In this document: in pieces, positions 29,986 through 38,624 of the stretch
Layout: the number at the start of each line of letters is the position of its first letter
How positions within the stretch are numbered: position 1 is the first letter of the stretch
DNA from: Asaia bogorensis
Lineage (GTDB): Bacteria; Pseudomonadota; Alphaproteobacteria; CACIAM-22H2
Direction of reading: 5' to 3'
Assembly: GCA_945901855.1 (NCBI GenBank)
Contig: CAMDLT010000039.1
Coordinates: forward strand, 1-38,624
Length of the DNA: 38,624 nucleotides
The notes under the pieces: generated by a model
The model's input: the letters and a program-made list of their open reading frames with translations, nothing else
Told to the model about the DNA's origin: nothing
The model's database searches: none
Position numbers and translations under genes: made by a program

Positions 29986-30978
29986 ATGGCTGCCGATGCC
30001 AAACCCGCCGGAATTTCGCCCGAAGCCGCCGTCCTGCTGCGCGGCAGCGACGCGCCGACGCATTTTGCCTTCGAACATAAACTGTTCCAGGCACAAGGCG
30101 CCGTCTTCCGGGTCGACGAAACCAACGGCCACCCCTGCTTGGCGGTCGATCTTGGCGACGTGGTCGCCAATATGGATCTGGACGCGATCGGTGCGGGCTT
30201 CGGCATCGAGCCTGCGAGCGCCGATGCGCACATGCTCGAACTCGTGCGCCGGGCGCTCGAACATGTCGAGCGCGTGGCGCCGGGCGACCCGATTCCCTCG
30301 GAGATTCTGGACGGCGCCGCATCGTGGAAGATCGGGCCCCATCATCTGCTCGTGGCCGAGGGGCGGATTTCCCAATCCTTGATCGCCTGGATGGGGGGCA
30401 GCCAGGACGATCGGCTGTCGCCGGGGGAATTGGCGCGCCTGGCGGCCGATCCTGCGACCAAAGCGCGCCTGCGCGAAGCGTTCGGCAGATTGGCCGAGCG
30501 CATGGGCCTGCCGCCGTCGCGCAAGGGCGAGGTGCTGGGCCGCGTGGCGACGCTGGCCAAGGAGCTGTCCTATATCGAGGCGCTGCGCGAGCGGCTGGGC
30601 GAGATCGAGCGTTTGCGCGCCAAGACGACGGAGCTGCGCCGCCAGTACCGTACCGACAAAAGAAACGCCGAGGAGATCGACCGCGCGCTGAAACTGATGG
30701 CGCCACCGCTCAAAAAATTCGCGCAGCGTTTCGACGAACTCGATGCGCAAACCGGCGAGACGGCGAACGTGATGCCGAACCTGACCGCCGCGATCGCCTT
30801 CATCCGCCAGGCGCGCGACGAACTGCGCAGGGAATTCCGCCTCTGGGAACCGCAGTTGGAATTGTGGCGCGATCTTGCGCCCGTCCGCAGCGCCAAGGCC
30901 GAGCGCGCGGTCGTCTATCTGTACCGCTTTCTGGCGCGCCAATATCCTGCCGACCAACTATGGACATCGCACGCATGA
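29986..30978 (+). CDS. Hypothetical protein, paralogue 1 of a duplicated pair
   Basis: A 330-aa soluble protein with no family that I recognise. The N-terminal third looks globular (THFAFEHKLFQAQGAVFRVD, PCLAVDLGDVVANMDLDAIG). The second half is helical and rich in charged heptads (ALRERLGEIERLRAKTTELR), which suggests coiled coils. Its stop codon overlaps the start of a PilZ gene (ATGA), so the products are coupled. A second copy at 31902-32894 has the same length and 30 of 42 identical residues in the best segment I compared. A c-di-GMP-linked role is inferred from the PilZ partner only. Confidence 0.8.
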   Translation: MAADAKPAGISPEAAVLLRGSDAPTHFAFEHKLFQAQGAVFRVDETNGHPCLAVDLGDVVANMDLDAIGAGFGIEPASADAHMLELVRRALEHVERVAPGDPIPSEILDGAASWKIGPHHLLVAEGRISQSLIAWMGGSQDDRLSPGELARLAADPATKARLREAFGRLAERMGLPPSRKGEVLGRVATLAKELSYIEALRERLGEIERLRAKTTELRRQYRTDKRNAEEIDRALKLMAPPLKKFAQRFDELDAQTGETANVMPNLTAAIAFIRQARDELRREFRLWEPQLELWRDLAPVRSAKAERAVVYLYRFLARQYPADQLWTSHA

Positions 30979-31355
30979 AAAAGCCCAAAGAACCGCTCGA
31001 TCGGCGGCGCGAACCGCGCTTCGACGTGGCGAGCGGCGCCATGACGCAAGCCGACGCGCCCGCCGCCGACGGGCATGCCTGTTTGGATTGGAGCCGCACG
31101 GGCTTTCGCGTCGCGGCCCAGACCGCGGACGGCCGCAACATGCTGCCCGAAGAAGGTGCCGGGCCGTTTGCAGTCGCGCTGCGCATCCGGGCGGCCATTG
31201 GGCACATATCGGTAAAGGGTACGGGCACGATCGTGCGCCGGACAGACGATTTTATTGCCGGCACCTGGACGCTTAGCGACCCCAGCGGCCCCCATGCGGA
31301 GATGGCGGCAGCGATCCTCGACGCGTTCATGGAAGCGGGGCCGGGCGCGGCATAA
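30975..31355 (+). CDS. PilZ-domain protein, paralogue 1
   Basis: A 126-aa single PilZ domain, the common c-di-GMP receptor. The two ligand motifs are present: RREPRF (RxxxR, about residues 11-16) and DWSRTGF (D-x-S-x-x-G). There is no membrane segment or extra domain. The start ATG overlaps the stop of the 330-aa gene, so the two proteins probably act together. A slightly upstream ATG (30960) is possible but lies deeper in the previous gene. The second copy at 32891-33259 has the same motifs. Confidence 0.88.
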   Translation: MKKPKEPLDRRREPRFDVASGAMTQADAPAADGHACLDWSRTGFRVAAQTADGRNMLPEEGAGPFAVALRIRAAIGHISVKGTGTIVRRTDDFIAGTWTLSDPSGPHAEMAAAILDAFMEAGPGAA

Positions 31356-31373
31356 ACAAATCCGCGCCTCCGG

Positions 31374-31446
31374 TGGGCCCGGCAGGATTCGAACCTGCGA
31401 CAACACCGTTATGAGCGGCGGGTTCTAACCGCTGAACTACGGGCCC
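31374..31446 (-). tRNA. tRNA with CAT anticodon (probably Ile2, possibly Met)
   Basis: Read on the minus strand, 73 bases fold into a full cloverleaf: acceptor GGGCCCG/CGGGCCC, D-stem GTTC/GAAC with an 8-base loop, anticodon stem CGCCG/CGGTG with loop CTCATAA, T-stem GCAGG/CCTGC with loop TTCGAAT, and discriminator A. The CCA end is not fully encoded (ACCG). The CAT anticodon with the short D-loop resembles the lysidine-modified Ile tRNA (decoding ATA), but an elongator Met tRNA cannot be excluded by eye. The genome should have TilS if it is Ile2. Confidence 0.9.
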
Positions 31447-31771: not shown

Positions 31772-31901
31772 GGCGTTTCTCTTGCCAACTTTTTGCTAGG
31801 ATCGGATAAGCTCCATTGTCGCCGCGCACGGATCGGTTTAGCAATGCGCAGGCAGCGTATTGAAGGTTTCCTGACAAGTTTACCGCTTTGATGGCAGTTT
31901 G

Positions 31902-32894
31902 ATGGCGATTACAACTCTCAGAAACGAAGCGCAACCAGATCCTGCAGCTTCGCCGCGCGGCGCCGACGGGCCGACGCATTTCGTCTTCGAACATCGGCTT
32001 TTCGCGGTCAAAGGGGCGATGTTCGAAACCGCCGAGGCGACCGGCACGATGTGCCTTGCGGTCGACCTTGGGGACATCGTGGCGCATATCGATCTCGACG
32101 CGATCGCCAACAGCTTCGGCATTGCGGCCGACTCCCAAGACGCGCAGATGCTCGAACTGGTCCGCCGCGCGCTTGCACACGTCAAGCGCATCGCGCCCGG
32201 CGACGCGATCCCATCCGAGATACTGGACGGGACCGCATCGTGGCACATCGAGCCGCGCCATCTGCTGCTCTCGCAGGGGCGAATCTGCGCTTCGCTGCTG
32301 GCCTGGATAGGCGAGCGACACGGCCACGCGCTGGAGCCGTCGGCGCTGATGAAGCTCGCTGCCGATCCGCAGGCGAAGGCAAGCCTGCGCGAGGCCTTCG
32401 ACAGACTCGCGGCACATCTGGGGCTGCCGCCTGCGCGCACGGGCGAAGTGCTCGGCCGCGTGGCCACGCTCGCCAAAGAGCTTGCCTATATCGAGGCGCT
32501 GCGCGAGCGGCTTGCCGCGATCGAGGGCGTGCGCACCACGCTGCGCCAGCTCTTCCGCCTGTATCGCGGCCGACACCAGACCGCCGGCGAGATCGAGCGC
32601 GCATTGAAACTCATGACGCCGCCGCTGGCGCGTCTTGCCGCGCGCTTCGACAATCTCGACAGCCAGACCGCCGAGACCGCCAACGTGATGCCCAATCTGC
32701 CGACCGCCATCGCCTTCATCCGCACGGCGCGCGACGAATTGCGCGGCGAGTTCCTCAAATGGGAACCGACGGTCGAATCGTGGCGCTCCGTGGCGCCCGT
32801 GCGCAGCGAGCGTGCCGAGCGCGCAATCATGCAGATATACGGATTTCTTGCGCGCACCTATCCGGTGGCGAAGGAATGGGCGAAACACGTATGA
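31902..32894 (+). CDS. Hypothetical protein, paralogue 2 of a duplicated pair
   Basis: A 330-aa soluble protein, the same length as the product of 29986-30978 and similar throughout; segments such as MLELVRRAL, IPSEILDG, GEVLGRVATLAKEL and ETANVMPNL are shared exactly. The first 20 residues differ. Both copies keep an open frame despite many substitutions, so both are probably under selection. I choose the ATG at 31902; a TTG sits directly before it. The stop overlaps the second PilZ start as ATGA, as in copy A. No known family; helical C-terminal half. Confidence 0.8.
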   Translation: MAITTLRNEAQPDPAASPRGADGPTHFVFEHRLFAVKGAMFETAEATGTMCLAVDLGDIVAHIDLDAIANSFGIAADSQDAQMLELVRRALAHVKRIAPGDAIPSEILDGTASWHIEPRHLLLSQGRICASLLAWIGERHGHALEPSALMKLAADPQAKASLREAFDRLAAHLGLPPARTGEVLGRVATLAKELAYIEALRERLAAIEGVRTTLRQLFRLYRGRHQTAGEIERALKLMTPPLARLAARFDNLDSQTAETANVMPNLPTAIAFIRTARDELRGEFLKWEPTVESWRSVAPVRSERAERAIMQIYGFLARTYPVAKEWAKHV

Positions 32895-33259
32895 CCGACG
32901 CAACCGACCGCCGACACGAACCGCGCTACGAGGTGGCACGCGGCAGCCTGGTGCCTGCAGGCATCTTCGGCGCTGGCGCGCATGCATGCCTCGATTGGAG
33001 CCGCACGGGCTTTCGCATCGCCGCCGCCGCCGCGGGCGGGTCCGACGCGCTGCCGACCGACGGCACGCCGTTCGATTTCGATCTTGCGGTCGAGGGTGCC
33101 CTTGGCAGCATCGGCGTCAAAGGCACGGCGCGCATCGTGCGGCGCACGTCGGAATTCGTGGCCGGGACCTGGACCTTGCGCAACCCAACCGGCCCCAACG
33201 CCGGCATTGCCGCCCTGGTGCTCCTCGCGTTCCTCGAAACGGGACCGGGCGAGACCTAA
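32891..33259 (+). CDS. PilZ-domain protein, paralogue 2
   Basis: A 122-aa single PilZ domain. The c-di-GMP motifs are HEPRYEV preceded by Arg (RRHEPR, RxxxR) and DWSRTGF, identical in key residues to the first copy. The start overlaps the preceding gene stop (ATGA). The segment RIVRRTSEFVAGTWTLRNPTGP parallels the copy A segment TIVRRTDDFIAGTWTLSDPSGP, which shows common origin. Retained motifs suggest it still binds c-di-GMP. Confidence 0.88.
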   Translation: MTDATDRRHEPRYEVARGSLVPAGIFGAGAHACLDWSRTGFRIAAAAAGGSDALPTDGTPFDFDLAVEGALGSIGVKGTARIVRRTSEFVAGTWTLRNPTGPNAGIAALVLLAFLETGPGET

Positions 33260-33277
33260 ACAAATCCGTGCCGCCGG

Positions 33278-33322
33278 TGGACCCGACAGGATTCGAACCT
33301 GGGAAAATACCGGTAGGAGCGG
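33278..33322 (-). pseudogene. tRNA remnant (3' half) in copy B
   Basis: On the minus strand the sequence CAGGTTCGAATCCTG followed by TCGGGTCCACC equals the T-arm and 3' acceptor half of the intact tRNA at 31374-31446, with a few changes. The D-arm and 5' acceptor strand are absent: about 28 bases are deleted, after which the flank (GCGACTGTT) resumes. The anticodon loop is also changed, so no functional tRNA can form. Confidence 0.8.
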
Positions 33323-33364
33323 CGCGCGGGCGCGACTGTTACAGCGAAGCGCCAAGCAGATCGC

Positions 33365-33460
33365 AAAAATAAGGGGAGGCATCCCCCACTCGCCCTTGCG
33401 GACGAGGGGGTAAGCCCGCAGTGGATAAACCACTTACCGTGGTTTCCCAACCGACTCCCA
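33365..33460 (-). ncRNA. tracrRNA (minus strand, upstream of cas9)
   Basis: An anti-repeat lies at 33436-33460. Its plus strand equals the crRNA-sense repeat at 23 of 24 positions from repeat base 2 to 25 (one mismatch at base 14), so the minus-strand RNA pairs with the 5' part of each repeat. Next on the minus strand come a small hairpin AGTGG/CCACT (33420-33434) beside the duplex, as expected of a nexus, and a GC-rich hairpin with a GCAA loop (33383-33410). The RNA ends in TTATTTTT (33365-33372). Predicted length is about 96 nt. The 5' end follows from the promoter below. Confidence 0.85.
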
Positions 33461-33465
33461 AAACG

Positions 33466-33494
33466 ACTAAACCATCTCGCCACATTCCCGTCAA
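33466..33494 (-). promoter_or_regulatory. Putative tracrRNA promoter
   Basis: On the minus strand TTGACG (33489-33494) is followed after exactly 17 bases by TTTAGT (33466-33471), a good -35/-10 pair. Transcription would begin about 33458-33461, right at the edge of the anti-repeat. Confidence 0.6.
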
Positions 33495-33531
33495 GATGCT
33501 AATTCTTGAAGACAACTTTGGCGAGGAACAT

Positions 33532-36500
33532 ATGAAATTCGAGGCGAATCGTACGTTCGGTTTCGACATCGGCATCGCATCGTGCGGGTGGGCGGTTATC
33601 GACGACGGGGAAAAGATCGTCGATATGGGCGTCTGGCTGTTCGATGCGCCCGAAACCGACAAAGAACGCACGCCAACCAACCAGCTTCGCCGCACCGCGC
33701 GCGGCATGCGGCGCGTGCTGCGCCGCCGCCGCCAACGCATGCGCGACATCCGCGTGCTGTTCGAAAAACACGGACTGCTCGCCTCGCGGGTACAAGATGC
33801 GTTTGCCGTCTTGCGCCTGGATCCGTGGAAGCTGCGGGCCGAGGGGTTGAAGCGCGCTTTGTCGATGCCGGAGCTGGCGGTGGCGCTGGCGCATATCGCC
33901 AAACATCGCGGCTTCAAATCGAACAGCAAGCGCGATCGCGGCGCCAACGCGCCCAAAGACACAAAAGGCATGCTGGGCGCGCTCGAAGCAACGAAGGCCA
34001 AGCTCGCCAATTTCGAGACGGTCGGCGAAATGCTCGCGCGCGACCCGGAATTTGCGCTGCGCAAGCGCAACCGCGACGGCGACTATTCGAGGTCGGTCGA
34101 GCGCGACGCGCTGGCGCGCGAGGTGGCCCTGCTGTTCGACCGCCAGCGGCGCTTCAAAAATGCGGCGGCAACGGGCGAGTTGGAAGACGCATACGTCGCC
34201 ATCGCCTTTCGCCAGCGCGGGCTCGCCGACAGCGAAGACCGCGTCGGGTTCTGCCGCTTTTTTCCCGATGAACGTCGGGCCGCAAAACGCGCCTATTCGT
34301 TCGAGCTGTTCCGCCATATGTCGCGCTTGGCGAATTTGCGCCTGCGCACCGGGCGCGCCGAACGAACGCTGACGGCGGACGAAATTCGTCTGGCCAGCGC
34401 CGATTTCGGCGCGAATCACGGCCTGAAATTCGCCAAGCTGCGCAAGACGCTGAAACTCGACGATGCCGAACGCTTCGAGGGCGTGCCCCTCGACGAAGAA
34501 GGCAAGCGCGAGGTCGTGTCGCGCAACGGCGATTCGGCGTCGGGCACTTACGCGCTGCGCCAAGCGTTGGGGGCGGCCTGGAACGGACTTCTGGGCGCGC
34601 CCGACAAGCTCGACCGCATCGCCTTCGTGCTGAGCTTCCGGGAGTCGGACGACACGATCCGAGCGGGTCTCGCCGAAATCGGCCTCGAAGCGACCTTGCT
34701 TGAGGCGCTTATGGCGGGGCTGGCGCGCGGCGATTTTTCGGACTTCACGGGCGCGGCCGATCTGTCGGCCAAAGCGTGCCGCTTGCTGCTGCCGCATCTG
34801 GCGCAGGGGTTGGATTTCACAAAGGCTTGCGCGGCGGCGAGCCTGAAAGATCCCGACAGCCGGGCCGGCAGCCTTGCCGAGCTTGTCGCGGCGGGCGATA
34901 TCGGCAAGGCTTTGGGCGAATTTCGCATCCAGGCGCGCAAGGCGATCGACGAGATCGGCAATCCCGTGGCGCGCAAGGCGCTCAGCGAATCGGCCAAACA
35001 GTTTGTGGCGCTGGCGCGCGAATACGGCTTGCCGGGCAAGATCCATGTCGAGCTGGCGCGCGACGTGGGCAAAAGCAAAGAAGAGCGCGACGAAATCAAG
35101 ACCGGCATCGACAAGCGCAACGCCGAGAAAGACAGGCTGCGCCTGCGTTTCGAGGAGCAACTGGGCCGCAAACCGCGCAATGCGGGCGATTTCCAGCGCT
35201 TCGAGCTGTGGAGCGAACAGCAAGGTTTTTGCCTCTATACCGGCGATCCGATCCCGGTCGGCCTGCTCGCATCGGACGACAATTCGATCCAGGTGGACCA
35301 CATCTTGCCGTGGAGCCGCTCGGGCGACGATTCGTTCGTCAACAAGACGCTGTGTTTTGCCAAGGCCAATCAGGAGAAAAAGGGCCGCACGCCCTGGGAA
35401 TGGCACGCAGCCGCCAAGACGCCCGACCAATGGGACGCGTTTGCAGCGCGCGTGGAAACGTTGCGCCCGATGAAGGGGCGCAAAAAGCGCAACTATCTGC
35501 TGAAAGACGCGAGCGTTCTGGAAACCAAATTCCGCGACCGCAATCTGGGCGATACGCGCTTTGCGACGCGCGCGTTTGCCGATATTTTGCGTGCGCTCTA
35601 CCCGAAGAAGGACGCGGCGCGCAGCGTGTTTGCGCGGCCCGGCGCGCTGACCGACCGGCTGCGGCGCGGCTGGGGCGTGCAGGGCCTGAAGAAGGACGAA
35701 AACGGCGAACGCATCCCCGACGACCGCCACCATGCGATCGACGCGCTGATCGTGGCGGCGACCAGCGAAGCGATGCTGCACGCGCTGACCAAGGCGTTTC
35801 AGGCGGCCGAGGCGCTGGGCAGCCCGCGCGATTTCGGCAGGCTCGATCCGCCGTGGCCCGGCTTCCTCGAACAAGCGCTTGCCGCCTACGCTAAGGTGTT
35901 CGTGGCACGCGCCGAGCGCCGTCGCGCGCGCGGGCAAGGACACAAAGAAACGATAAAAGGCTTCGAAGACACGCCGGACGGTCCCCAAGTCTACGAGCGT
36001 AAGTCCGTTGAAGAACTCACGCTTACGGATCTCGAACGGGTCCCGGATTCAGAGCGCAACGCTGCGCTGATTTCGGTATTGCGCGCCTGGATCGAGGACG
36101 GCAAGAAAAAAGGCACTAAACCGATCTCGCCGCAGGGTCACCCGATCGGGAAGGTACGCCTCAAGAGCAAAGACAAGGTAGCGGTCAAAGTTCGTGGCGG
36201 CACAGCAGGTCGTGGCGAGATGGTTCGTGTTGATGTGTTTACGAAACCGAACACGCGCGGCAAGGACGAGTTTTTTCTAGTCCCGATCTATCCCCATGAA
36301 GTGATGAACGAAAGACTCCACCCAGAACCTCCGAATCGAGCGATTACGCGCGACAGAGCCGAGAACGATTGGGTGGAAATCAAGAGAGAGCATGTGTTCC
36401 GCTTCAGCCTATACAAACTAAGTCTGGTCCAAATTGTTAAATCAACAGGCAAAGTACTCGAAGGCTACTTTCGTAGTGTTGATCGAGACAGCAACTCTCT

Positions 36501-36654
36501 TAAGATTTCATTTCCGACGTCAAAAACGGAACTAAGCCCAAAAATTGGGTTCAAAACGCTACATTCGATGCGCAAATTCCAAGTCGACCGCCTCGGCCGT
36601 CGTTTCGAAATCAAAAGCGAGCAGCGAACATGGCATGGCGAGGCGTGCAAATAA
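33532..36654 (+). CDS. cas9: Type II-C CRISPR nuclease Cas9
   Basis: This 1040-aa RNA-guided nuclease has all catalytic residues: RuvC-I Asp12 (FGFDIGIASCGWAV), RuvC-II Glu507 (IHVELARD), HNH His590 with Asn604 and Asn613 (VDHILPWSRS, NKTL, ANQEK), and RuvC-III His734 and Asp737 (DDRHHAIDA). The Arg-rich bridge helix spans about 50-80. GQGHKETIKG near 803-812 marks the start of the WED/PAM-interacting part. Size and gene set (no csn2 or cas4) fit type II-C. I choose the ATG at 33532, with GAGGA just before it; a longer in-frame start at 33421 would run through the tracrRNA. Codons from about 35940 on are far more AT-rich than before. Confidence 0.95.
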   Translation: MKFEANRTFGFDIGIASCGWAVIDDGEKIVDMGVWLFDAPETDKERTPTNQLRRTARGMRRVLRRRRQRMRDIRVLFEKHGLLASRVQDAFAVLRLDPWKLRAEGLKRALSMPELAVALAHIAKHRGFKSNSKRDRGANAPKDTKGMLGALEATKAKLANFETVGEMLARDPEFALRKRNRDGDYSRSVERDALAREVALLFDRQRRFKNAAATGELEDAYVAIAFRQRGLADSEDRVGFCRFFPDERRAAKRAYSFELFRHMSRLANLRLRTGRAERTLTADEIRLASADFGANHGLKFAKLRKTLKLDDAERFEGVPLDEEGKREVVSRNGDSASGTYALRQALGAAWNGLLGAPDKLDRIAFVLSFRESDDTIRAGLAEIGLEATLLEALMAGLARGDFSDFTGAADLSAKACRLLLPHLAQGLDFTKACAAASLKDPDSRAGSLAELVAAGDIGKALGEFRIQARKAIDEIGNPVARKALSESAKQFVALAREYGLPGKIHVELARDVGKSKEERDEIKTGIDKRNAEKDRLRLRFEEQLGRKPRNAGDFQRFELWSEQQGFCLYTGDPIPVGLLASDDNSIQVDHILPWSRSGDDSFVNKTLCFAKANQEKKGRTPWEWHAAAKTPDQWDAFAARVETLRPMKGRKKRNYLLKDASVLETKFRDRNLGDTRFATRAFADILRALYPKKDAARSVFARPGALTDRLRRGWGVQGLKKDENGERIPDDRHHAIDALIVAATSEAMLHALTKAFQAAEALGSPRDFGRLDPPWPGFLEQALAAYAKVFVARAERRRARGQGHKETIKGFEDTPDGPQVYERKSVEELTLTDLERVPDSERNAALISVLRAWIEDGKKKGTKPISPQGHPIGKVRLKSKDKVAVKVRGGTAGRGEMVRVDVFTKPNTRGKDEFFLVPIYPHEVMNERLHPEPPNRAITRDRAENDWVEIKREHVFRFSLYKLSLVQIVKSTGKVLEGYFRSVDRDSNSLKISFPTSKTELSPKIGFKTLHSMRKFQVDRLGRRFEIKSEQRTWHGEACK

Positions 36655-37523
36655 CGCGCCCTGCCCGTTTGTCGCTCGAAGACGGGCAATTGGCAGTGGC
36701 GCAAGAAGACGGCGAGGTGCGATTGGCGTTGGAGGATATTGCCTGGCTGATTGTCGATACGCCCCAAGCCACGCTGACGGCGGCGCTGCTGTCGGCCTGC
36801 ATGGAAGCGGGCATCGCCGTGATGACGACAGATGCCCGCCACATGCCGTCGGGGTTGCTGCTGCCGTTCCACCGCCATCACCGGCAGGCCGACATTGCCT
36901 TCAAACAGGCGAATACGGGGGCGCCGTTGCGCAAACGCCTATGGCAGGCGATCGCGCGCGCCAAAATAGCCAATCAGGCCGCCGCGCTCGACCGGTTGGG
37001 CCGCGCCGATGCGGCCGCTATCCGGCAGATGCTGGCGCATGTGGGCTCGGGCGACCCCGACAATGTGGAGGCGCGTGCGGCCCGTGCCTATTGGGCGAGC
37101 CTATGGCCCGATTTTGTGCGCGACGACGAGGGCGACACGCGCAATATGCGTCTCAACTACGGCTATGCGGTCATGCGCGCGTGCGTGGCGCGCGCGCTCG
37201 TAGGGGCAGGGCTGCTGCCCGCCTTTGGCCTGCACCATGCCAGTGCGGTCAATCCGTTCAATCTGGCCGACGATCTGATCGAGCCGTTCCGCCCGTTCGT
37301 CGACGAGCTGGTCTGGCAAATGGCGGGCGACGGCGCGCCCTCGCGCGCCAAGCTGACGCGCGAGGACCGGCAGCAACTCGCGGGCTTGCCGCTTGCGGCA
37401 TGCCGCATGGGGGCGGATCGCTTGACCTTGCTCGCGGCAAGCGAGCGCGCAGCGGCAAGTCTTGTGCGCGCGATCGAGGGCGCGTCGCCCGAGCTGTTGG
37501 AATTGCCGATCTTCGCGCCGTGA
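36630..37523 (+). CDS. cas1: CRISPR integrase Cas1 (type II)
   Basis: This 297-aa metal-dependent integrase inserts new spacers together with Cas2. The catalytic set is present: Glu147 (NVEARAARAYW), His202/His203 (GLHHASAVNPFN) and the acidic segment NLADDLIEPFRP around 211-220. The N-terminal beta-domain begins MAWRGVQITRPARLSLEDG, typical of type II Cas1. The start overlaps cas9 by 25 bases, so the operon is tightly coupled. Base composition is back to the high-GC host level, unlike the end of cas9 just upstream. Confidence 0.94.
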   Translation: MAWRGVQITRPARLSLEDGQLAVAQEDGEVRLALEDIAWLIVDTPQATLTAALLSACMEAGIAVMTTDARHMPSGLLLPFHRHHRQADIAFKQANTGAPLRKRLWQAIARAKIANQAAALDRLGRADAAAIRQMLAHVGSGDPDNVEARAARAYWASLWPDFVRDDEGDTRNMRLNYGYAVMRACVARALVGAGLLPAFGLHHASAVNPFNLADDLIEPFRPFVDELVWQMAGDGAPSRAKLTREDRQQLAGLPLAACRMGADRLTLLAASERAAASLVRAIEGASPELLELPIFAP

Positions 37524-37543
37524 TCGCCGGGGAGGTGCGTATC

Positions 37544-37849
37544 TTGTGGCTGTTCGTTTTTTTCGATCTGCCGGTGAAAACGAAGCCCGAGCGACGCGCG
37601 GCGACGCAATTCCGCAATTTCCTCAAAGACGACGGCTACATGATGCTGCAGTATTCGGTTTATGCGCGCGCTTGCAGGGGCGAAGATGCCGTTGAAAAGC
37701 ATGTTGCACGCGTGACCAAGCGCTTGCCCACGACGGGCAGCGTAAGAGTCCTGCAAGTGACGGAGCGCCAATATGGCCGGATGCGACTTTTGCTGGGACA
37801 GGCCGGAAAAAACGAGAAATTTGCCGCCCGCCAGCTTGTTCTGCTCTGA
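37544..37849 (+). CDS. cas2: CRISPR adaptation protein Cas2
   Basis: A 101-aa ferredoxin-fold protein that dimerises to bridge Cas1 during spacer acquisition. The start WLFVFFDLPVKTKPERRAAT, with the acidic Asp at the end of the first strand, and DDGYMMLQYSVYARAC are typical of type II-C Cas2. I favour a TTG start at 37544, eight bases after a strong GGGGAGG site (37529-37535). A GTG at 37520 overlapping the cas1 stop (GTGA) is an alternative that adds eight residues. The stop codon lies inside a long inverted repeat. Confidence 0.92.
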   Translation: MWLFVFFDLPVKTKPERRAATQFRNFLKDDGYMMLQYSVYARACRGEDAVEKHVARVTKRLPTTGSVRVLQVTERQYGRMRLLLGQAGKNEKFAARQLVLL

Positions 37850-37882
37850 TTTCGGCCGAAGAATCGGCGGAAATCAGAGCAG
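37841..37882. terminator. Long inverted repeat over the cas2 stop codon
   Basis: Arms CTGCTCTGATTTC and GAAATCAGAGCAG pair perfectly; after one G-G mismatch, GCCGA/TCGGC continue around an AGAA loop, giving 18 of 19 pairs. The left arm contains the cas2 stop (TGA at 37847-37849). The plus strand continues TTTCAAGCAGTTTT. It lies where the cas operon (plus) and the predicted array transcript (minus) meet, so a two-way terminator is likely. Confidence 0.65.
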
Positions 37883-37905
37883 TTTCAAGCAGTTTTGCCG
37901 GGGCG

Positions 37906-38624
37906 AACCTACACGATGGGAGTCGGTAGGGAAACCACGGCGCCGGCGGCTGGCATCTGGGGCTTGCGCGCAACCTACACGATGGGAGTCGGTAGGGAAA
38001 CCACGGCCGCTCCGCACGAGGTCGATGCAGTGCCAAAAACCTACACGATGGGAGTCGGTAGGGAAACCACGGCGCGTATTCGGCGCGGGCTTCGAGCTCG
38101 GCGAACCTACACGATGGGAGTCGGTAGGGAAACCACGGCTCAAAGCCAAGCCAGTCGGCCAAGCGGCGAAACCTACACGATGGGAGTCGGTAGGGAAACC
38201 ACGGCGGGGCCGATCACCGCACGGATCTTGGTGGCAACCTACACGATGGGAGTCGGTAGGGAAACCACGGCCGATAGGCGCCGTTGGCCCAGCGCTTGAC
38301 GAACCTACACGATGGGATTCGGTAGGGAAACCACGGCGAAAATGCCGAGCGCCGCGCCGCGCCTCGGAACCTACACGATGGGAGTCGGTAGGGAAACCAC
38401 GGCGCATCCCCGCCACGTGCGTGACGGCGATCGAACCTACACGATGGGAGTCGGTAGGGAAACCACGGCCAGCCGCACGCGCAACCTGATCGAGGCGCGA
38501 ACCTCCACGATGGGAGTCGGTAGGGAAACCACGGCCGTGCCGGTGAGGCCGGCATGGATGGCCGAAACCTACACGATGGGAGTCGGTAGGGAAACCACGG
38601 CTGGCTTCGCGCTTCATGCCAACG
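37906..38624 (-). CRISPR. CRISPR array, type II-C, continues past the window end
   Basis: Eleven 36-bp repeats start at 37906, 37972, 38038, 38104, 38170, 38236, 38302, 38368, 38434, 38500 and 38566. The period is exactly 66, giving ten full 30-bp spacers and a cut eleventh (38602-38624). On the plus strand each repeat begins AACCTACACGATGGGAG and ends GGGAAACCACGGC. Two repeats differ by one base (G to T at 38318, A to C at 38505). The strand is inferred: only the minus-strand repeat pairs by its 5' end with the tracrRNA. The leader would then lie beyond 38624. The repeat nearest cas2 is unchanged, so the array end is not marked by a degenerate repeat. Confidence 0.97.

Follow-up and report, generated by a model that had tools for sequence, protein, structure and literature searches.

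Type II-C CRISPR-Cas systems (clustered regularly interspaced short palindromic repeats and their associated genes) combine a three-gene operon with an array that runs opposite to it, a layout given for N. meningitidis, P. multocida, and C. jejuni in the available part of Fonfara 2014 (PMC3936727). The same layout is found at the right end of the window, which is the whole stretch of 38,624 nucleotides of Asaia bogorensis DNA analyzed here. The locus there is very probably a complete type II-C CRISPR-Cas9 system for adaptive immunity in an alphaproteobacterium and, by comparison with three congeners, an insertion. Judged by its gene content and clade membership, this locus is a further member of a well-known subtype with many alphaproteobacterial relatives. 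Compared to the three model systems, it has a different repeat, and its Cas9 is 29.6% identical to the P. multocida Cas9 record.

Closer counterparts are found among alphaproteobacteria. Plasmid pTM3 of Tistrella mobilis KA081020-065 (NC_017958) resembles the window in having its array downstream of cas9 on the same side, 66-nt units, a trans-activating CRISPR RNA (tracrRNA) upstream of cas9 on the opposite strand, and a repeat whose 5′ half is nearly the same (GCCGTGGTTTCCCTACCGA). It differs in being plasmid-borne, in a Cas9 that is 49% identical, and in the 3′ half of the repeat, which has co-varied with the anti-repeat (TTTGCC versus CTCCCA). Azospirillum halopraeferens DSM 3675 (NZ_KE386932) also has a minus-strand tracrRNA and falls into a four-row set with the window in the tree described below; its Cas9 is 55% identical, and no array was found in the stretch examined. 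A further parallel is EHCas9, a characterized metagenomic II-C enzyme of 1070 amino acids (aa) whose nearest kin are alphaproteobacterial. According to the available part of its description (PMC10281378), the tracrRNA lies upstream of ehcas9, the contig ends in an array, and the authors placed the protein in II-C clade IX near Sulfitobacter, a clade of the Gasiunas scheme to which Sulfitobacter donghicola belongs. Among the papers listed from the literature with an open license, no Cas9 work on members of the clade of the window, no measured protospacer adjacent motif (PAM) for it, and no paper on its repeat sequence were found. Tistrella, Azospirillum, and Gluconacetobacter are not named in the main text of Gasiunas 2020 (PMC7606464).

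cas genes and clade placement

A sequence-only reading of the window had listed a tracrRNA, cas9, cas1, cas2, and an array, and all of these parts are present; the three genes are borne out by open reading frames (ORFs), Pfam, and NCBIfam. The protein-coding features are as follows.

33532–36654, plus strand: cas9, 1040 aa, with D12, E507, D589/H590, N613, H734, and D737 present (ORF, Pfam, NCBIfam)
36630–37523, plus strand: cas1, 297 aa, type II (NMENI) subfamily, overlapping the end of cas9 (ORF, NCBIfam)
37520–37849, plus strand: cas2, 109 aa from a GTG start (ORF, Pfam, NCBIfam)

The three genes are all on the plus strand, overlap their neighbors at the ends, and fill 33532–37849. That the operon contains cas9, cas1, and cas2 only is argued from this use of space, no search with csn2 or cas4 models having been made. 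Cas9 starts at an ATG (an alternative upstream GTG would give 1077 aa) and matches TIGR01865 over nearly its full length (E 3.8e-178). Pfam finds HNH_4 and RuvC_III in it, and its best sequence match among solved Cas9s has an E of 5.7e-121. The claim that all nuclease residues are present held up, as D12, E507, H590, N613, H734, and D737 of the RuvC and HNH sites are invariant in an alignment of 11 Cas9s. Cas1 matches the type II model TIGR03639 (E 1.2e-86; 290.5 bits against a cut-off of 120), and Cas2 matches TIGR01573 (E 4.1e-22).

Relatives were collected with a profile of six Cas9s (the window and five class members), which found at least 589 stretches and at least 125 relatives. The best 80 loci were kept, and together with three loci from IMG/VR, the window, L039, and L056 they make a set of 86, of which 76 share at least 40% identity. 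Scans with the single Cas9 protein gave no relatives in the named genomes and no match in IMG/VR, and no Cas9 match at E 0.001 was found in 22 genomes of the genus and family, several of them incomplete; a search of the order covered the same 22.

A Cas9 search and tree, which the sequence-only reading had proposed as a check, placed the window inside a supported alphaproteobacterial group. In a tree of 80 rows, built by a quick method and rooted at the midpoint, the window falls in a set of four rows with Azospirillum halopraeferens and two Rhodospirillales assemblies (support of 96 in the Shimodaira–Hasegawa-like approximate likelihood ratio test, SH-aLRT), and this set lies inside a fork of 60 rows (SH-aLRT 99). 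Every row of the fork whose name reaches class level or below is alphaproteobacterial; some titles give Proteobacteria only, and two rows are IMG/VR contigs. The Cas9s of Ilyobacter, Synergistales, Methylotenera, Novosphingobium, and Pseudosulfitobacter fall outside the clade of the window. The repeat and tracrRNA had been implied to be unusual, and this impression did not survive the comparison. The repeat type is common to a broad alphaproteobacterial clade that includes Nitrospirillum, Tistrella, Gluconacetobacter, Rhodopila, and Bombella; the window repeat agrees with its majority form, GCCGTGGYTTCCCTACCGA...TAGGYT, from which several members deviate. The layout of guide RNAs opposite to the cas genes is likewise not unusual, because the available part of Fonfara 2014 gives the same layout for II-C.

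That this Cas9 belongs to a subtype distinct from II-C is hardly credible: its identity to the compared Cas9s outside the clade is about 31–37%, with one intermediate (L045/L138) at about 40%, which would suit such a subtype, but the cas9-cas1-cas2 content, the type II Cas1, the near full-length TIGR01865 match, and dozens of alphaproteobacterial relatives all speak for II-C. As a II-C locus, it adds a compact and apparently intact Cas9 with a well-defined predicted dual RNA to the clade.

Two observations on relatives deserve separate mention. In L044/L126 (G109), cas9 is split over two reading frames while repeats and tracrRNA are present. For the pair L145 and L123, the Cas9 of an IMG/VR contig and the Cas9 of Pannonibacter carbonis are identical, so the contig may represent host DNA or a mobile element bearing the locus.

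Guide RNAs and their strand

The predicted tracrRNA and its parts lie immediately upstream of cas9.

33365–33460, minus strand: tracrRNA (predicted from repeat match, fold, and conserved strand and place)
33437–33460, minus strand: anti-repeat, an inverted match to the repeat at 23/24 positions (repeat bases 2–25)
33420–33434, minus strand: tracrRNA hairpin 1
33414–33417 with 33377–33380, minus strand: closing helix, enclosing the inner hairpin
33383–33410, minus strand: inner hairpin
33365–33372, minus strand: U-rich tail, present under either 3′ structure
33466–33494, minus strand: putative tracrRNA promoter TTGACG-17-TTTAGT (clade conservation)

The anti-repeat had been reported with exactly this extent and match, and the inverted match recovers both. 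Its sole mismatch is a U-U at repeat base 14, which recurs in 9 of the 32 distinct repeat/anti-repeat pairs of the clade.

Comparison across the clade supports the view, already proposed from the window alone, that the tracrRNA and CRISPR RNAs (crRNAs) would be made from the minus strand, opposite to the cas genes. First, 66 of the 76 clade loci (window included) have a tracrRNA on the strand opposite cas9, at a distance of 76–191 nt upstream of the cas9 start. Second, the array strand is opposite to cas9 in 56 of 58 clade arrays, a usable repeat having been read in 60 of all 86 loci. Third, the repeat and the minus-strand anti-repeat covary. Among 49 loci with both elements, which give the 32 distinct pairs, standard pairs at positions 2–25 make up 96.1% with the own partner. 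In 1000 shuffles of partners, which leave kinship in place, the mean was 90.7% and the highest value 93.0%. Both partners have changed at position 8 and at positions 17–24.

Some results weigh against this account. The remaining 26 of the 86 loci yielded no usable repeat, and the same search found no tracrRNA in 10 of the 76 (L088, L098, L099, L107, L111, L113, L119, L122, L137, and L143), of which L099 and L137 begin at a contig edge. The arrays of L098 and L143 scored on the other strand. Finally, the tracrRNA of the window folds better than its shuffles (z −3.2), but so does the plus strand over the stretch between the anti-repeat and the cas9 start, both included (z −2.4). Folding alone therefore does not settle the question, which is decided for minus by the covarying pairs together with the conservation of the promoter box.

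Plus-strand guide RNAs, running in the direction of the cas genes, would simply prolong the cas operon transcript and would have a precedent in type II-A, where arrays are transcribed in this direction (available part of PMC3936727). Such an arrangement is nonetheless highly improbable here, as the clade conserves both the −35 boxes and the tracrRNA structure on the minus strand, where the anti-repeat that pairs with the repeat also lies. The comparative set thus fixes the minus strand as the likely source of guide RNAs for the clade as a whole.

The putative tracrRNA promoter is proposed because a TTGAC or TTGAA box is conserved, not because of a consensus promoter scan; that scan, which demands an A at position 2 of the second hexamer, called none for the tracrRNA. 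In 63 of 66 clade loci, such a box falls among the 60 nt that precede the anti-repeat, with TTGAC mostly 58–60 nt before the anti-repeat end.

For the 3′ end of the tracrRNA, the sequence-only reading had drawn a nexus hairpin and a terminator. The small GGGGGATGCCTCCCC hairpin, which a terminator scan lists for the tracrRNA 3′ end, gives way to the closing helix, which is better conserved; the U-rich tail comes next under either structure. Candidates for this helix were found in 48 of 63 tracrRNAs (36 with four or five of five pairs, G-U counted) in a targeted search with no shuffled control. The helix takes the form AAGGA/UCCUU in many, ACGGA/UCUGU in L080, L091, and L130, and GGGC/GCCU in the window, which supports the suggestion that it has been kept through compensating changes in part of the clade. 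A consensus of the 63 tracrRNAs (MAFFT/RNAalifold) recovered only the inner stem.

Array and its continuation

The array closes the window, and a palindrome separates it from cas2.

37841–37882, no strand: palindrome over the cas2 stop, an inverted repeat between cas2 and the array (clade conservation)
37906–38624, minus strand (transcribed): CRISPR array in the window with 11 repeats (36 nt each), 10 full spacers, and an eleventh that is only begun, continuing on contig C6

Nine of the repeats in the window are identical and two carry one substitution, while all 10 spacers are exactly 30 nt long (unit 36+30). The array had been taken to end at 38624, which is in fact the end of contig C39 in an assembly of 3.68 Mb and 82 contigs. 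Its continuation lies at one end of contig C6 (L009:12331–12706), with the last ten bases of spacer 10, six repeats, and five further spacers, followed by an AT-rich flank; over both contigs there are 15 spacers. The joining of C39 to C6 is also supported by neighbor genes common to the congeners, the first gene past the array on C6 being rpoD, about 0.45 kb away, and the next dnaG. The two contig ends (38566–38624 and L009:12331–12706) disagree by two units, as the third full C6 spacer begins with the same 23 bases with which the window closes. Either a variant in the population or an error of assembly would account for this.

The repeat farthest from cas2 has one change, at the first base of the transcribed strand. 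In II-C systems, the first transcribed repeat is the oldest and is mutated in 60% of cases, and new spacers are added at the last repeat, as stated in the available part of Feussner 2025 (PMC12080349). With its mutated distal repeat, the present array fits this published pattern of acquisition.

From these elements we infer how the locus would work. The cas9-cas1-cas2 operon would be transcribed rightwards, the tracrRNA would start from the minus-strand promoter between it and cas9, and transcription of the array would run leftwards, with promoters most probably lying within its repeats. Repeat bases 2–25 would pair with the tracrRNA anti-repeat, RNase III would probably trim the duplex, and Cas9 with the dual RNA would cut DNA beside a PAM. 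New spacers would enter at the cas2 end, as suggested by published II-C systems and by the mutated repeat at the far end.

In the window, 23 nt separate the palindrome from the first repeat, and its distance from the array is about the same in the clade. In 41 of 55 clade loci (window included), this stretch holds a 13-bp helix with at least 11 Watson–Crick pairs, compared to 1 of 550 mononucleotide-shuffled controls; another count gave 43 of 55 (44 of 56 including L119, which contains a run of N). Its sequence varies while pairing is kept (CTCTGA/TCAGAG, CTGTGA/TCACAG). The terminator scan did not call the palindrome at 37841–37882 in the window. The element is likely to be an end signal for the cas transcript between converging transcripts, a part of the leader for spacer insertion, or both. 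Palindromes over other cas genes, and a tracrRNA upstream of cas9 mainly in Bacteroidetes II-C systems, are described in the available part of Fremin and Kyrpides 2022 (PMC9067536), and the word cas2 does not occur in its main text.

Spacer targets and activity

One spacer has an exact match elsewhere in the same genome. Spacer 5 (window 38206–38235) matches C67:11130–11159 (L182) at 30/30 positions. The matched gene lies close to one end of this 12-kb contig and encodes a tyrosine recombinase (Phage_integrase in Pfam, E 3.4e-16; integrase in PHROG). Read along the protospacer strand, the 3′ flank is GTCGCCAC. The element on C67 is cut off by the contig end, and integrases 44–48% identical to that of C67 are present in three of ten congeners. 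The system had been taken to look active from its sequence; an exact self-target in the same assembly is a mild argument against simple full activity. Only this one protospacer was found, too few to derive a PAM.

A locus with an intact sequence that is nevertheless silent or inhibited, being either unexpressed or blocked by an anti-CRISPR, is possible, though unlikely. The resident target of spacer 5 would be tolerated in that case, and the other 14 spacers, which lack a second match at E below 0.1 in their own genome (40 of 76 first-look candidates scored), also fit it. Against this, the assembly is fragmented and the array differs between the contig ends, so the element may sit in other cells, and the 3′ flank of the C67 target may lack a PAM. 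It is a rather doubtful, speculative idea that the element with the matched integrase, or another element, encodes an inhibitor of this Cas9 clade; if true, that element would be a lead to an anti-CRISPR for these alphaproteobacterial Cas9s.

External targets were sought with both array parts against phages and plasmids (E up to 0.5, all rows). The window part matched 12 phage records with a best E of 0.06, 11 of them Gordonia phages. In these 11, the first 25 bases of spacer 7 (38338–38362) and the last repeat base agree with the tape-measure gene at 25/26 positions (E 0.2); being GC-rich and in actinobacterial phages, this is probably a chance match. The C6 part matched no phage at E up to 0.5. 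Among plasmids, only the Tistrella array was matched, through its repeats, all else being at E 0.06 or worse. A search of IMG/VR used 20-nt seeds from six of the 15 spacers, and five gave no match; the seed of spacer 3 occurs in three contigs, where the rest of the spacer fails to match, and was rejected as chance.

The spacers were also searched in 192 genomes, with three candidates scored per genome; outside the own genome, G089, G005, and four loci were scanned. Many matches were artefacts spanning spacer junctions of the joined query. A match of spacer 10 at 27/30 in G089 was rejected, as the gene looks transporter-like by eye (no family search).

Insertion site

Comparison with three of the ten congeners (G002, G003, and G004) indicates that the module is an insertion relative to them. 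Its left edge is marked by one feature.

33276–33324, minus strand: tRNA-Met remnant, the degenerate 3′ 49 of 75 nt, intact in the three congeners

In these congeners, the upstream gene (the homologue of 31899–32894), the intact tRNA-Met, and the rpoD side are directly consecutive. Homology to them breaks off within the tRNA gene, at 33324, and is picked up again at L009:12194 on C6, so that about 5.7 kb with tracrRNA, cas genes, and array stand in place of about 125 bp. ARAGORN called no tRNA at 33276–33324, and no integrase gene was seen in the CRISPR-Cas module. A second tRNA-Met survives at 31372–31446. The self-target and the module-free site of the congeners together make the recent history of the locus testable.

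Next to the module, 29986–31446 and 31899–33324 form a diverged tandem duplication, each copy comprising a protein of about 330 aa, a small ORF, and a tRNA-Met. The two large proteins have no convincing Pfam family and are 63% identical to each other.

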